The notes under the pieces: generated by a model
What the model was told of the DNA's origin: nothing
Database searches by the model: none
What the model saw: the letters and a program-made list of their open reading frames with translations, nothing else
In this document: positions 28,452 to 46,185 of the stretch, piece by piece
Layout of the letters: every line of letters starts with the position of its first letter
Numbering within the stretch: position 1 is the stretch's first letter
From: a virus
DNA length: 64,000 bases
Strand: one strand, 5' to 3'
IMG/VR virus record: IMGVR_UViG_3300009502_000026
Location: 1-64,000 of that record
Position numbers and translations under genes: made by a program

Positions 28452-30374
<1,923 letters not shown>

Positions 30375-30921: not shown

Positions 30922-31707
30922 ATGACCCTGACCTCAAAACTGATCCGTCTCGCCAGTCAGAACCCTGCTCTCAAGCCCCACATCGCAGCCATCCTGAAGG
31001 AAGCCTCAATGTCTGAGCCTGACTTCTGGAAGCTCATCGAACCTTATGGCTGGGGGACCAAGACCACAGATTACAAAGCCATCAAGAAGAGCCTGATGGG
31101 GAAACTGTCTCCTGATGAGGCAGAGGGACTCCAGACTACAATGATGAAGCTGGAAGGCAAGCTTTACAAGGCTCTGAAAAACCTGAACATTGTGTCAGGT
31201 GACACCATGGGTGACCTCATTGCCCACATCATAGGGATGGGCAAGAAGGAATTCGAAGCGGTAATCAAGGACCCCCAACTAGCCTACCAGCGTTACCAGA
31301 GCGGTCAGTACACGGAGTCCTTCAGCTACGCTCTCCCACACAAGAGTGACTACAAGAATCTCAACGTCACCAAATTCACTGACTGGGCACAGGAGGTTAT
31401 TGGTAACTACACAATGATCCTCAATGCCTCTGAAGATGACATCCCCTGGAAGTCCAAGCTTGCGGCTCCCTTGAAGAAGGTCATCTCAATCATGGAGAAG
31501 TTCGTTGAGACAAAGGATGTAGCCACCTTCTTGGACAACGAAGCAGAAGCCAAGAAAGAGTCTGAAGAAGTGGGCAAGATTCTCAGTAGGTTGCAGCTTG
31601 GCTGGAGTATACCTAAAGAGGGTTCCCTGGAGAGTGCCGTTCATTTCAGCGGCAATAAGTGGGGTGTCTGGAACCTGTTCACTGATGTGCGGGACTACCT
31701 GAGCTAG
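30922..31707 (+). CDS. Propeptide-bearing cargo protein (261 aa)
   Basis: Starts at ATG 30922, giving MTLTSKLIRLASQNPA then LKPHIAAILKEAS, a divergent copy of the shared leader. A longer open reading in the same frame upstream is the shadow of the preceding gene. The mature part is helical (EAEGLQTTMMKLEGKLYKAL, LAAPLKKVISIMEKFVETKD) and ends with a small beta unit (VHFSGNKWGVWNLFTDVRDY). No known family. Its stop shares CTAG with the convergent methyltransferase gene. Confidence 0.6.
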   Translation: MTLTSKLIRLASQNPALKPHIAAILKEASMSEPDFWKLIEPYGWGTKTTDYKAIKKSLMGKLSPDEAEGLQTTMMKLEGKLYKALKNLNIVSGDTMGDLIAHIIGMGKKEFEAVIKDPQLAYQRYQSGQYTESFSYALPHKSDYKNLNVTKFTDWAQEVIGNYTMILNASEDDIPWKSKLAAPLKKVISIMEKFVETKDVATFLDNEAEAKKESEEVGKILSRLQLGWSIPKEGSLESAVHFSGNKWGVWNLFTDVRDYLS

Positions 31708-32474
31708 TCCTTCAGCAAGTCCAACACCCCAATGTTCTCAATAGGGACTGGTGTTGCTACATCAATCTTGGACTTGATAATATCACAATAGGAAGGCTCC
31801 TTCTCAATCAGGATGGACTTCCTACCCATCCTCTGAGCTACAATCCCTACAGTCCCACTACCTGCAAAGGGGTCCAATACGGTGTCCCCTACGTCTGTGT
31901 AGACCTCCAGAACACGCTGAACCAAGCTAGGTGGGAAAGCCGCAGGATGCTCGGACCTGATGGAATCTTCTCCAACGGTACTCCAGATTGCCCTCTGACT
32001 GATCTTGCGTGCTCGTATCTCCTGGGCACCCCCACCGATCTTACGGAAGGTGTACAAGTGCTCAAACTCAGGTACAGCCCTGGGTGCCGAGATTGCGTGC
32101 TTACCCCCGGTCACTTTTGCAAAATCCTTCTGCCAGATACGCTGTGCCTGAAGTACCAATCCATGAGCCATCCCAAATGCCCAGTACACCCACCCCATAG
32201 GCATCTCACAAGGTTCCTCAGTACCTAAGATGTCCCTACTAGGAATGATGTCTCCAAAATTGAATACTGCATACCCCCCTCTTACAAGCACTCTCTCTAC
32301 CTCAGACATACAACGGTTCAAGAGGCCAAACAGGACACCAATACGGATGTCCGGTTCGTAGTCTTTCCCAACCCCGTATGGAGGAGACGTGAATACCAGA
32401 TGAACTGATTCTGAAGGGAGGGTAGGCAGGACTTCTTCGAACAACCCACAAAAAACCCGGCATTCAGGTGTCAT
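31704..32474 (-). CDS. Site-specific DNA methyltransferase (N4-C/N6-A, beta type)
   Basis: 256 aa from ATG 32474. The catalytic motif IV is FTSPPYGVG near the N terminus, and the AdoMet-binding motif I (DPFAGSGTVGIVAQRMGRKS) is near the C terminus. This permuted order is typical of beta-class amino-methyltransferases. A target-recognition region lies between (WQKDFAKVTGGKHAISAPRA). No matching restriction gene is adjacent, so it is likely an orphan enzyme protecting phage DNA from host restriction. The specificity cannot be read. Confidence 0.85.
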   Translation of the reverse strand: MTPECRVFCGLFEEVLPTLPSESVHLVFTSPPYGVGKDYEPDIRIGVLFGLLNRCMSEVERVLVRGGYAVFNFGDIIPSRDILGTEEPCEMPMGWVYWAFGMAHGLVLQAQRIWQKDFAKVTGGKHAISAPRAVPEFEHLYTFRKIGGGAQEIRARKISQRAIWSTVGEDSIRSEHPAAFPPSLVQRVLEVYTDVGDTVLDPFAGSGTVGIVAQRMGRKSILIEKEPSYCDIIKSKIDVATPVPIENIGVLDLLKD

Positions 32475-32534
32475 GCTGGGATCATACCCCAACAAAACGT
32501 AGGCTGATTATTCGTCTACCTACAAACGGACCAA

Positions 32535-33494
32535 CTAACTGATGAGGGTGGAGGCATGAGCCAGAAGTGTGCAAAGCCCCAAAACTATTGGGAAAACAAC
32601 GAAATTACGGGGGGACAAAACGCCCCGGCCGACGCTGGGACCGAAGCTTGATCTAATGCCAACTCCGTACTTAGGCTGAGACACACCACGGATGAACTTG
32701 GTAGTCCTTGCCTTCATCTCCGTGGCCTTATCGAACTGTTGCTCAGCATTCTGCTTCAAGGACTCATACTTGGAGGACTTCTCAATCGAGAGTGAGATGC
32801 CTCCAATGCTGTAGTCAAACTCGTCTGCCGTCCAGTTCATTGCCAGGGAAAAGCAAGCATGGGTGATGGCATTCCACAGGATTGCCGTTCTCCAAATAGG
32901 CTTCTTTGCCACCAAGTCATCAATGGTTCTGAGGTCTTCAGTCTCCGGGGGAAACATGTTCCACCAGTCCATGCTTCTCTCGATGTACTCAGCAAGTTCG
33001 GCATCTTCCCATAGCTGCCCGAAGACCCTGTTGTAAGACCCAATGGTGCCTTCATGCTCTGGGGGACGGAAGCGATAGAACTTGTCAGGAGAGTTTTTCA
33101 ATACATTTTGTGTGCTTACACACACGAATCTGTACCAATCCGCAACAGTGAGATCGTACATATACTGTCGCACCGGGAGAGTTTCTACGGACTTCACTGG
33201 CAGGTAAACGACAGCATCCCCGACAACAGACAACACCATATCACCGGGTTTGAGAGTCTCGGCCGGAACCTTATCCTCCAGGCCCAGCCCAAGGTAGACC
33301 GGGTGGCCTCCGGTCAACACCATGGTTCCTACATCGTTGGTGACAGCAACGATATGCTCCCAAGGAACCTCATTGCGAATGACATTCTCAATGCGTTTCC
33401 ACTCGACGTTGCCATCAGGGGATACCGAACGCACTTTGAGTTTGCCCGTATGGTAAGATGACTTGACCCTCACACGCTGCGCTTCGGTCAACAT
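32535..33494 (-). CDS. Split intein C-fragment (134 aa) plus C-extein of virion protein
   Basis: 319 aa. Residues 1-134 are an intein C-part: VRSVSPDGNVEWKRIENVIR, block B TGGHPVYLG (TxxH), AETLKPGDMVLS, block F YMYDLTVADWYRFV, and block G NVLKN with Ser135 as the +1 nucleophile. The penultimate His is Lys. Residues 135-319 (SPDKFYRFRPPEHEGTIGSY, AELAEYIERSMDWWNMFPPE) read as the second half of a structural protein that has no start of its own, ending in a hydrophobic tail. Its partner is the product of 34303-34791. The start overlaps the nuclease gene by 7 bases; GAGAGG precedes the ATG. Confidence 0.85.
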   Translation of the reverse strand: MLTEAQRVRVKSSYHTGKLKVRSVSPDGNVEWKRIENVIRNEVPWEHIVAVTNDVGTMVLTGGHPVYLGLGLEDKVPAETLKPGDMVLSVVGDAVVYLPVKSVETLPVRQYMYDLTVADWYRFVCVSTQNVLKNSPDKFYRFRPPEHEGTIGSYNRVFGQLWEDAELAEYIERSMDWWNMFPPETEDLRTIDDLVAKKPIWRTAILWNAITHACFSLAMNWTADEFDYSIGGISLSIEKSSKYESLKQNAEQQFDKATEMKARTTKFIRGVSQPKYGVGIRSSFGPSVGRGVLSPRNFVVFPIVLGLCTLLAHASTLIS

Positions 33495-34261
33495 TCAAGT
33501 TCCCTCTCAGTCCACACCTTAAACGACCATCCCAGCCTATGGGCTTCTTCTTCAGCTACCCCCAAACGTACCCTGACCTTCTCGTACCCACAATAGGCCG
33601 GGTCCAAAGCATAAGAAGGCTTAACCTCGATCAGGGTATGTGTCCCATTCTGATGGGTAACAATGAAATCCGGTAGGATATGCCAGCCATTGGGCAACGC
33701 CAGGCAGTCCTCAAATACGTAGGATATTACATCATTTAGATGGTCTAACAATTCAGATGCCCGTTTTTCGTAAGATGACCTAACCTTAAATCGCCCTCCC
33801 TTGACAGACTGGACCCATTCTGCCTTCCCATAGGGGTAGTTGAACTCAGGGTGGGATTTGATGAACAACACCCTGTTCCGGGAATACTTTGCCCTCGTAG
33901 ATGGCCTGTCAAAGTTCCCGGCAGCCCACTGTGCTTCCAATTGTCCAGGGCGGGATTTCCCCTTCCATGAACGACCAACACGTACACCCACATCATGCAG
34001 CACCCCCCTAGATGCTGGGTTCCACATAGCCCGGGTGAGCCGCTGGATGCTTCCTTGACCTAGCCCTGTCACGACCATCATGTCTGCCCAGGAAGTTCCC
34101 TGGGAGTGAAGTTCAGTGATGATGTCCCGGCGCACGCCCACAATCTTCTCATTGCCCTTCTTGGGTCGTCCCCTCTTAGCGAACTCTACATAGGTCACAC
34201 CATGCTTCTCCAGCAACGGCACGAGTTTAGGGTGCGGGATGGAAACCTGCATACAAGTCAT
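33488..34261 (-). CDS. Free-standing PD-(D/E)XK nuclease inside the split-intein gene
   Basis: 257 aa from ATG 34261 (34252 or GTG 34273 are also possible; none has a clear ribosome binding site). The N-terminal half is DNA-binding in style: a basic stretch RGRPKKGNEKIVG, a helix-turn-helix-like ITELHSQGTSWADMMVVTG, and a GRSWKGKSRPGQLEAQ module like NUMODs of homing enzymes. The C-terminal domain is a nuclease: SSYEKRASELL (Glu165), LPDFIVTHQNGTHTLIEVKP (Asp198, Glu212, Lys214). It lies between the two split halves, where known fractured genes carry a homing endonuclease. It probably cuts uninterrupted copies of the gene. Confidence 0.75.
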   Translation of the reverse strand: MTCMQVSIPHPKLVPLLEKHGVTYVEFAKRGRPKKGNEKIVGVRRDIITELHSQGTSWADMMVVTGLGQGSIQRLTRAMWNPASRGVLHDVGVRVGRSWKGKSRPGQLEAQWAAGNFDRPSTRAKYSRNRVLFIKSHPEFNYPYGKAEWVQSVKGGRFKVRSSYEKRASELLDHLNDVISYVFEDCLALPNGWHILPDFIVTHQNGTHTLIEVKPSYALDPAYCGYEKVRVRLGVAEEEAHRLGWSFKVWTERELEC

Positions 34262-34302
34262 CGAATATAGCACAGAAAACGATAGTGTTTGTCTGGTGGG
34301 GA

Positions 34303-34791
34303 TTAGCTCGTCACGATGGTGTAAAGATCTTCCAAACTCACGATGATCTTCTCCCCATCAGCATCCACCTCGATAGTCTCCTCTCCTCCGAGACATTGAT
34401 CTCGGAGGAGCAACCGGAGTTTCCCCACCATGTCCAGCATTGCCATGGAGAACGGTGGGACAATCGTGGTGCCTGAGACCACGACTGCCCACTCCTGAAC
34501 AACTTGCTGTGTCTGTGCCCCAGCGAACTCCTGGAAGGTCCACCTGATCCTGTAGTCCCCAGCCGTAGCTGAGACAGGGATCTGGAGGGAGGCATAGTAC
34601 TCCCCTACCGTGGGATGGAGGGGTGCCCTGGTTGCACTCCCAATGAGTACCTCCAGGTGGGACACAGGGTCTACATAGTAGATCGCATACGTGATGCTGA
34701 AGGCATCCGATGGGTTACCCTGTGAGTTGGTAAGGAAGATGTCTAGGTCTCCCCTACCAAGTGTCTGATTTGGTGTGAATACAACACCCAT
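34303..34791 (-). CDS. N-extein of virion protein plus 30-aa split intein N-fragment
   Basis: 162 aa. Residues 1-132 are the first half of a structural protein (MGVVFTPNQTLGRGDLDIFL ... DMVGKLRLLLRDQ). Residues 133-162 begin with Cys133 and read CLGGEETIEVDADGEK ... SLEDLYTIVTS, closely patterned on the very short N-fragment of the atypical split intein AceL-TerL (C--GDT--ETEDGK-K-EDLY). Trans-splicing to Ser135 of the 32535-33494 product would give a 317-residue protein joined as LLLRDQ-SPDKFYRF. The host protein's role (neck or baseplate) is not identified. Confidence 0.85.
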   Translation of the reverse strand: MGVVFTPNQTLGRGDLDIFLTNSQGNPSDAFSITYAIYYVDPVSHLEVLIGSATRAPLHPTVGEYYASLQIPVSATAGDYRIRWTFQEFAGAQTQQVVQEWAVVVSGTTIVPPFSMAMLDMVGKLRLLLRDQCLGGEETIEVDADGEKIIVSLEDLYTIVTS

Positions 34792-37398: not shown

Positions 37399-37935
37399 CT
37401 AGGGGGGTGTGGGCATGTGGGCATACGAAACGTTGATGTTCGAAGCACAGTAGAGAGTCCCACCCCCTGTGATGGATTCACAGAACAGGGCTATCCTCAT
37501 GGTGGCGGAAGGCTCAACCCATACGCTGTAGGGAGCAAGGGTGTCACTGACCACGGGCCCAGGGATCGCAAGCAAGTCACCCGTGTCCACATTCCGAAAA
37601 CTCAGGACGGCTCCGTCAACATCAGCAACAGAGATGCGAGCCAGGACTTCCAAGATGTAGTTCGTGGTGAAACCTGTCTTCACGAACTGGGACGGGTCTA
37701 GCAGTATGATGTCTGACACCCGGGTAGGCGTGGCAGGTGCCGAGGACACACCACTACCCAGTAGGAGAACGGATGGACCTGGATCACCCGCTGGACCTGG
37801 ATCACCCGCTGGACCTGGATCACCCGCTGGACCTGGATCACCCGCTGGACCTGGATCACCCGCTGGACCTGGATCACCCGCTGGACCTGGAGGGCCTGGA
37901 GGTCCCCCTGCGGTTAGAGGACTGAAGATAGGCAT
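37399..37935 (-). CDS. Collagen-like short fibre with perfect 18-bp repeats
   Basis: 178 aa. Residues 11-53 are Gly-x-Y triplets, mainly six perfect copies of AGDPGP. The C-terminal 120 residues (SVLLLGSGVSSAPATPTRVS, DIILLDPSQFVKTGFTTNYI) form the same domain as at the ends of the products at 41530 and 47804. A collagen stalk with a C-terminal knob implies a trimeric fibre. The usual MSVLRR anchor is missing; the N terminus is only MPIFSPLTAGG. Confidence 0.7.
   Translation of the reverse strand: MPIFSPLTAGGPPGPPGPAGDPGPAGDPGPAGDPGPAGDPGPAGDPGPAGDPGPSVLLLGSGVSSAPATPTRVSDIILLDPSQFVKTGFTTNYILEVLARISVADVDGAVLSFRNVDTGDLLAIPGPVVSDTLAPYSVWVEPSATMRIALFCESITGGGTLYCASNINVSYAHMPTPP
37775..37882 (-). 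repeat. Six perfect 18-bp tandem repeats in a fibre gene
   Basis: Unit GGACCTGGATCACCCGCT (plus strand) occurs six times without a mismatch, followed by a partial unit. It encodes the collagen-like AGDPGP hexapeptide. Identity at third codon positions indicates recent expansion; copy number may vary between isolates without shifting the frame. Confidence 0.9.
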
Positions 37936-41529: not shown

Positions 41530-42474
41530 CTATGGGGTGGTGTAGGAGACGTTGACGTTTGCAGATGTGTACAGAGTCCCACCCCCAGCAATACTCAAAC
41601 AGAACAGAGCAATACGCCTAGGAGTGATCAACGTGAACGTAGTGATGAATGTAGTAAGAACGTCACTCACTACAGGCCCAGGCACCGCTAGGATATCTCC
41701 TGTATCCACATCCCACAAAGACAAGACGGCCCCCGCAGAATCAGCTACAGTAAGCCTAGCCATGACCTCAATACTGAACTCAGTGGTATAACCTACTTTG
41801 GTGAACCTAGAGGGGTTCACTAAAGTGATATCAGAGACTCTCTTGATAGTGGCAGGTAGTGAAGAATCACCACTACCCAACTCAACAACACTAGGTCCAG
41901 GATACCCTACAGCACCTGTTGGACCGGATGGCCCTAATGGACCTGATGGACCTGATGGACCTGACGGACCAGGATCACCTTGGGGACCCGAGGGACCCGA
42001 AGGTCCAGGGTCGCCTTGAGTGCCTGATGGACCTGAAGGCCCAGGGTCACCTTGCAGTCCAGAAGGTCCCGAAGGTCCTGATGGACCCGAAGGCCCAAGG
42101 TCACCCTGCGGGCCTGACGGGCCTGATGGTCCCGATGGACCTGTACTACCCGTTGGACCCGAAGGACCCGAGGGTCCTGTGGGGCCTGTTAGACCTACGG
42201 GGCCTGATGGACCTGATGGCCCGGAGGGCCCCGAAGGGCCTTGAATACCCTGAATACCTTGGATGCCTTGGATACCCTGGGGTCCGGTAGCTCCCCGCAA
42301 GCCTATACCAACTGGACCTGGAGGACCACTCGGCCCACTTGGTCCACTTGGACCTATGGAACCTGGAGGGGGATACCCGGGTACCCATTGAAAACCATTC
42401 CAGACAGGAACCTGCCCTGGTTGTGGGTTCGGCCAAAGTCTCTCAAGGATTTGAGTCAGGCTATCGGAGGGCAT
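41530..42474 (-). CDS. Collagen-like fibre with variant anchor and shared knob
   Basis: 314 aa. Anchor [20 protein letters not shown] then [14 protein letters not shown] (a variant of the MSVLRR module), then about 150 residues of Gly-x-Y including four QGI triplets and many GPSGPSG units. The C-terminal 120-residue knob ([20 protein letters not shown] ... [20 protein letters not shown]) is shared with 37399 and 47804. The longest stalk but one in the locus. Confidence 0.72.
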
Positions 42475-45084: not shown

Positions 45085-46185
45085 CTATGGGATCAGCCCG
45101 AAATCAACATGAACCTCTGCCGAAACAAACACCCTATCCGCCGATGTGCTCCCACCAGACAATGACCTAGAAATAAGCACCATCCTCTTGGAACTATGAG
45201 AAGCTGGGGGGTCAATGAAACTACGGTTGAGGTTTACTATGTACAAAGTGGGTGTGGTAGCCGACGTAGTTATGGGACTAACGGAGAGAAGAGACGTTGA
45301 AGGGTCTTCAGGTCTCACAAGGTCCAGGGTTGCATCAGTCAGAGTGCCTGTGATGTAAGCTATCATCCTAAGAGTCAGTACAATTCGATATCCAAAAGGA
45401 GGGATATAGTCATCTAGGGTAATCAAAGGAGAATACCCTAGCTGGGTAGTACCATTGAAAGAGGTATCCCCAGAACCCATGGAGATAGAAGTAGGCCCCT
45501 GAAAACCTCTTGGTCCAGAAGGTCCTAATTCACCTTGAGGACCGGATGGCCCTAATGGACCGGATGGACCCGAAGGCCCAAGGTTACCTTGTGGACCAGA
45601 TGGACCCAAGGGGCCTGAAGGACCGGATGGACCCGAGGGTCCTATAGTCCCCTGCGGGCCTGATGGTCCTGACGGGCCCAAAGGCCCAGATGTACCTTGA
45701 GGGCCTGATGGTCCCGAAGGTCCAGTTGGACCTGATGTGCCTGGATTACCTTGTGGACCTGAAACACCTTGGGGACCGGAAGGGCCTGTAGGCCCCGAGG
45801 GACCGGGATAACCTCTTGGACCTGATGGACCTGACGGACCTGACGGACCTAATGGTCCTGACGGGCCAGGATCACCTTGAGGGCCTGATGGTCCAGAAGA
45901 TCCTATTCCCCGTGGACCTCTTGGCCCTGTAGGTCCTTCAATTCCTTGGATACCTTGAATACCCTGCGGTCCAGAAGGACCAGAGACACCTGGGTCACCT
46001 TGAATACCCTGTGGACCACTTGGACCCAAAGGCCCACTAGGTCCAATTGGACCTGTCGGTCCCGAGGAACCTCCAGGATATGCCGGAACCCATGCAGTCC
46101 CATCCCATATTGGAATCTGACCGGGTAACGCATTCGGCCAGATTGTTTCCAAAATCTGGTCTAGCTGTCTCCGTAGGACCGACAT
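45085..46185 (-). CDS. Collagen-like fibre with MSVLRR anchor, form 2
   Basis: 366 aa, the longest collagen-like stalk here. Anchor [35 protein letters not shown]; Gly-x-Y from about 36 to 230 ([26 protein letters not shown]); C-terminal knob of a different type ([40 protein letters not shown]), related to the other knobs only in its edges. It likely trimerises. Confidence 0.72.

Follow-up and report, generated by a model that had tools for sequence, protein, structure and literature searches.

How is a virion protein made when its gene lies in two pieces, with a nuclease gene between them? The question is raised by a stretch of DNA of 64,000 nucleotides from a large uncultured phage (the window), positions 1 to 64,000 of the 94,090-base IMG/VR record IMGVR_UViG_3300009502_000026. 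Three consecutive minus-strand genes, all with intact reading frames, are found there at 34303-34791 (162 amino acids, aa), 33488-34273 (261 aa) and 32535-33494 (319 aa). Very probably, a mobile split intein which travels with its own nuclease gene has inserted itself into a conserved virion gene, itself probably encoding a head-tail connector, and the connector is restored by trans-splicing. The parts of the locus are:

34396..34791, minus strand: N-extein, 132 aa, probable head-tail connector; immunoglobulin (Ig)-like beta domain plus helix, C-terminal end KLRLLLRDQ
34306..34395, minus strand: N-intein fragment, 30 aa, from Cys1 to the stop, block A plus first helix; sequence CLGGEETIEVDADGEKIIVSLEDLYTIVTS
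33488..34273, minus strand: free-standing nuclease gene, 261 aa from a GTG start, probable homing endonuclease
33506..33679, minus strand: TnsA-like PD-(D/E)XK catalytic domain (Pfam PF08722), nuclease residues 199-256
33093..33494, minus strand: C-intein fragment, 134 aa; lead helix, block B TGGH, block F YDLTVADWYRF, block G VLKN, from solved inteins in the PDB and the family alignment
32538..33092, minus strand: C-extein, 185 aa, starting at Ser+1 with SPDKFYRFRPP

The N-intein fragment begins at Cys133 of the 162-aa product and runs to its stop codon, while Asn ends the C-intein in the 319-aa product, so that Ser135 is the +1 residue. Together, the exteins of 132 and 185 aa predict a spliced protein of 317 aa. 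A sequence-only reading had placed complementary intein halves of 30 and 134 aa in the two outer genes and had joined their flanks into one 317-residue protein. Both open reading frames (ORFs), the lengths of the halves and the joining of the flanks hold, but the 261-aa nuclease ORF between the halves had been overlooked. Elsewhere on the contig to which the window belongs (L139, L140), no second copy of the intein or the nuclease was found.

IMG/VR was scanned with the C-extein and then with a profile. In six phages both exteins lie in one ORF, abutting exactly at the predicted junction, and the profile scan yielded 87 loci with 67 distinct uninterrupted exteins. Identity to these homologues is 56-66% for the N-extein, full-length in most, and 52-76% for the C-extein. 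The comparison with uninterrupted relatives that the sequence-only reading had proposed thus finds the flanks to be one protein in all 67 distinct exteins, and the outcome it named as fatal, two separate proteins in phages without the intein, is seen in no intein-less relative. Most uninterrupted exteins share the motif LLRD[Q/N] followed, across the junction, by NPD[KR]. The +1 residue is Asn in 67/67 of them, whereas each of the 23 intein carriers has Ser or Cys there, which on these alignments is what splicing requires.

Carriers were gathered with a degenerate RD-x-Cys-block A pattern, with a scan using the nuclease profile, and from one contig of a Verrucomicrobiota metagenome-assembled genome (MAG). 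Scans with a single sequence (the C-intein) or with two (the C-intein and the nuclease) had given at most a 485-kb phage; it was the degenerate N-junction pattern that opened the family, picking out 16 stretches, each of which proved to be a true carrier at the window's insertion site (site a). The block-A pattern applied family-wide found no other extein. There are 23 distinct carrier contigs: the window, L098, L099/L107, L100 (phage LR745208.1), L101, L102, L103/L097, L104, L105/L106, L108/L131, L109, L110, L111, L112, L116, L117, L118, L122, L124, L128, L132, L138 and C37 of genome G001. The intein is split in 21 of the 23, with the break after 29-36 residues in those measured.

Among inteins of solved structure, the C-intein fragment has matches to Pho RadA (E 1.6e-5) and Mja KlbA (E 4.3e-5). 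Cys1, TGGH of block B, Asn134 and Ser+1, the residues of a class 1 intein, are present in the window as in the aligned relatives, and the Asp of block F is also kept. The N-intein fragment is 50-68% identical to the 29-36 aa N-fragments of related fractured loci, and the stretch that matches it is continuous in two relatives, L103 and L104, whose inteins are re-fused. The fold was tested on the predicted structure of L104 (mean predicted local distance difference test score, pLDDT, 73.9; mostly 80-92 in the intein part), where a HINT fold is found. Its 40 best PDB matches are all inteins or intein-like domains, led by 7oec (3.5e-9) and including 8ubs (8e-9) and the atypically split VidaL (6vgv, 3.6e-8). 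The site of the split corresponds in this model to a position between helices 151-159 and 165-171. Atypically split inteins of the S2 type are defined by an N-fragment of 15-37 aa and a split after helix 1 (PMC13014065), and the 30-aa fragment of the window agrees with both, bearing out the earlier assignment to the rare, AceL-TerL-like layout with a very short N-fragment. Judged by its sequence, then, the window locus is a split intein in a single extein.

Several features weigh against an active element in a connector gene. In the window block F reads DWYRF, while 21 of the 23 carriers have WHNF, NHNL or close His-bearing variants in the family alignment, and the penultimate residue of the C-intein is Lys, where the others have His or Ser (Ala in C37). 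A His in block F, at the penultimate position or at both aids Asn cyclisation; the window, with Tyr and Lys, is the only carrier without a His at or beside either. The nuclease gene starts at GTG without an obvious ribosome-binding site, a model of the extein has no significant PDB match (its weak hits are mostly Ig-like), and the connector role comes from a weak profile match and one annotation. The sequence-only reading had correctly listed blocks B, F and G in the C gene and a C-intein ending in KN; it had missed that block F lacks its His (DWYRF, not DWHNF/NNHNL) and that the penultimate His is absent as well.

Because both of the usual C-terminal histidines are missing, the activity of the window's copy is less certain than that of its relatives, and its C-terminal cleavage, to judge from these residues, may be slow or lost. 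The element could thus be genuine but decayed in the window, its halves assembling non-covalently without splicing or this phage's copy being crippled. The departures from the relatives at block F and the penultimate position favour such decay. All three frames are nonetheless open, and Cys1, TGGH, the block-F Asp, the terminal Asn and Ser+1 are retained; C37 likewise lacks a standard block-F His. These histidines assist, but do not define, inteins, and inteins without the penultimate His are known to splice. On balance a decayed copy seems unlikely, though it deserves to be taken seriously.

The nuclease of the window matches the TnsA-like domain PF08722 with 28.0 bits (cutoff 26.5), and five relatives score 26.2-36.5 bits. 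E169, PD202 and E216-V-K218 are invariant in the relatives, the E..PD..EVK motif being present in all 11 aligned nucleases, and because of this invariance the protein is taken to be a cutting agent. Full-length relatives occupy the same position in other fractured loci. It could instead serve in the virion or in head completion, as T4 gp4 does, and stand here by chance, as its C-terminus matches phrog_218 ('head closure') at 1.2e-6. However, it sits between the intein halves and is missing from empty and re-fused connector genes, it moves together with the intein, it is largely deleted in L110 and truncated in L132 and L138 while the intein halves are retained, and it has a long conserved N-terminal part outside the catalytic domain, helix-turn-helix (HTH)-like by eye. 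A head-completion role is therefore improbable, and the protein is, on sequence grounds, a probable homing endonuclease.

The interruption might also lie at the RNA level, in the form of an intron that splices itself and carries an endonuclease ORF; introns with free nucleases are frequent in phage virion genes, one of them in a tape measure gene (PMC10448857). Against an intron, both flanking ORFs continue into conserved intein coding sequence with catalytic residues, relatives hold the matching intein as one continuous ORF, and a +1 nucleophile is present in every carrier, all of which leaves it very little room. That two separate proteins merely carry chance intein-like sequence, as the absence of any Pfam, NCBIfam or PHROG match to the window's N gene alone might suggest, can be dismissed, being refuted by the 67 uninterrupted homologues and the 22 further carriers at the same site.

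With a mobile split intein as the preferred explanation, three products would be made from the locus: the N-extein with the 30-aa N-intein, the nuclease, and the 134-aa C-intein with the C-extein. The two intein parts would join into the HINT fold; following class 1 chemistry, attack by Cys1, transfer of the chain to Ser+1 and cyclisation of Asn134 would yield the 317-residue connector with Ser at the junction. The TnsA-like PD-(D/E)XK nuclease would cut empty connector genes of co-infecting phages, and repair would copy N-intein, nuclease and C-intein as one unit, a mode of transfer shown by comparison in relatives. Insertion into a motif that is among the most conserved in the gene, together with the need for splicing, would guard the element against loss.

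Carriers are scattered among empty phages, and well-supported branches of the extein tree force at least six changes of state. The nuclease of L098 groups with those of L099/L105 (support 100/99), in conflict with its extein, which groups with those of L101, L102, L109, L110 and L112 (100/100). L099 and L105 are 98.0% identical at the DNA level in the N-intein, 94.4% in the nuclease and 97.4% in the C-intein, but only 76.2 and 77.8% in the flanking exteins, and identity shifts at the intein borders. An element at 94-98% between exteins at 76-78% indicates, as far as such comparison goes, recent homing of the three parts as a unit. In the same pair the ratio of non-synonymous to synonymous substitution rates (dN/dS) is 0.11-0.30 in intein and nuclease (dS in the extein is saturated); by this measure both are under purifying selection there. 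L105 differs from the empty L038 by a clean insert of about 1.35 kb between flanks that are 87-90% identical.

Further states of site a are found among the relatives. The empty state is the uninterrupted connector gene, and the fractured state with nuclease is that of the window and most other carriers. L110 lacks 771 bp within the nuclease gene, and the sequences to the two sides of this deletion are 100% and 99.1% identical to L101, so that L110, on this alignment, is an intein caught just after nuclease loss; L111 likewise gives no nuclease match, and nuclease remnants persist in L132 and L138. The re-fused inteins are single ORFs of 162 aa (L103) and 154 aa (L104), the latter a clean 465-bp insert relative to the empty L039. 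Because these two differ in their linkers and in their place in the intein tree, either two re-fusions or several splittings have taken place, and the trees do not settle which. Finally, in the 155-kb contig JAKQDD010000211.1 (L092/L113, L095/L114) the halves lie 67 kb apart on opposite strands, the N half at 93212-93697(-) and the nuclease with the C half at about 24.6-26.3 kb(+). One inversion would explain this dispersal, and misassembly may also have produced it.

The connector gene is invaded at two further sites. Site b lies between NWxADEF and DYSIGG, and is occupied by a cis intein in L099 and L131, by a fractured intein with a Vsr/DUF559-like nuclease in L112, L116 and L124, and by a fractured intein with a nuclease remnant in L138. 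In L094, an Altiarchaeales MAG contig, site b is fractured and is the only site used; a Vsr-like nuclease part is there in frame with the C-intein, and the N-intein begins with Ser (L094:5992-7831). Four connector genes are in three pieces (L112:5464-9133, L116:3505-7290, L124:3544-7271 and L138:3511-6076), the middle piece bearing an intein fragment at both ends, with a TnsA-like nuclease at site a and a Vsr-like one at site b (remnants in L138). Since each of these genes has two split inteins, one protein would be assembled from three polypeptides. The third site, near the C-terminus between FGP(F) and SGRGVLSP, holds a cis intein ending in HN in L117 (2348-3739). In this phage site b has no intein, yet its +1 residue is Ser, perhaps the footprint of intein loss.

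It is likely that this one virion gene represents a living series of split-intein evolution, with three sites in conserved motifs, two unrelated nuclease types serving two of them, and states in which the gene is uninterrupted, fractured (with the nuclease still present or already lost), re-fused in cis or dispersed over 67 kb; in at least four phages two different natural split inteins would have to assemble the protein from three polypeptides.

The extein is probably the head-tail connector of the virion. A match to phrog_17327 (head-tail connector, E 1.3e-4) in 5/7 relatives, and the annotation of a homologue in phage Tunturi_5, whose gene lies close to those for the tail terminator and the tail sheath, lend moderate support to the earlier claim of a virion protein; the virion would presumably depend on trans-splicing, as the sequence-only reading had also proposed. 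The extein model has an Ig-like N-terminal domain (beta sandwich plus helix) and a helical C-terminal part; the junction is flanked by helix 116-129 and by a loop of low model quality. Several phages encode a further copy of the Ig-like N-terminal domain just upstream of the connector gene (L085:6001-6267, L088:6001-6225, L098:9813-10064, L109 and others). L085, L088 and L089 were considered as interrupted genes and rejected, having merely this upstream duplicate.

As a nuclease gene stands between its intein halves, the locus is a 'fractured gene' in the sense of Dassa et al. in 2009. Such genes are reportedly conserved genes, found mainly in phages, that a split intein has broken in two, with a free-standing endonuclease gene separating the parts; their exteins are said to be enzymes of DNA synthesis and repair, and a new Vsr-like nuclease family to occur in half of the original loci. 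The window shares this plan: its N gene, nuclease gene and C gene follow one another, and each half of the connector gene carries one part of the split intein. It differs in its virion extein and TnsA-like nuclease, Vsr-like nucleases being found only at the second site of the connector gene. The DNA polymerase B gene of jumbo phage MIJ3 is likewise fractured by an intein, and an endonuclease gene separates its two parts (PMC6892783), although there the extein is an enzyme, the nuclease is of the HNH type, the intein starts with Ser1, and its N part holds all of blocks A, N2, B and N4.

Natural split inteins with short N-fragments are known from TerL, VidaL and PolB16 (PMC13014065), among them the atypically split AceL-TerL and GOS-TerL, with N-fragments of 25 and 37 aa (PMC13014065, PMC11766414). 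The present family resembles these two in layout, with a short N-fragment (30 aa in the window, 29-36 in the family) and a split after the first helix (S2), but its extein is a connector-like virion protein rather than the large terminase. Similarly, the nuclease shares PF08722 with E..PD..ExK with TnsA of Tn7, whereas it is fused to an N-terminal part that looks HTH-like, is associated with a split intein, and has no transposon genes in view next to it. Features that appear to be new are the virion extein, the TnsA-like nuclease, the S2-type intein family, the occurrence of all states together at a single site, and the three-piece genes, although priority is not proven: no paper describing these features was found in a literature search that was thin in subscription papers, nor any relevant literature tying TnsA to intein homing.

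The origin of split inteins, and the breakage of genes by nuclease entry, have so far been argued from scattered examples, and here all predicted intermediates are found at one site in related phages. The order of events is directly testable because close pairs differ by a single step: empty to occupied (L105/L038), nuclease loss (L101/L110) and cis intein versus empty (L104/L039). An essential-looking virion protein would be under compulsory trans-splicing. About 20 new natural S2-type split inteins, with N-fragments of 29-36 residues, become available for protein labelling, and sites a and b in one protein suggest natural orthogonal pairs for three-piece ligation.

Other nuclease genes occur in these phages. 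The TnsA-like C-terminal nuclease domain is also found in phage contigs L133-L137, without connector or intein matches nearby, so that this nuclease family occurs in other contexts too. In many of the phages a nuclease-like gene with YGVENP-type repeats directly follows the connector gene (L007:4702-6165, L099:3292-4569, L117:3797-4759 and, in reverse, L101 2588-3097), perhaps a second homing nuclease guarding the connector region.

Around the locus in the window, a DNA methyltransferase gene (N6/N4 type, Pfam 4.7e-30) lies at 31704-32495, directly downstream of the connector C half on the same strand, and a 639-aa ORF at 28452-30371 resembles, by eye only, an NAD-dependent DNA ligase. Upstream, in the same direction, are collagen-like Gly-repeat genes at 37399-37935, 41530-42474 and 45085-46185; the latter two match tail-fibre PHROGs, and the first is collagen-like by eye.
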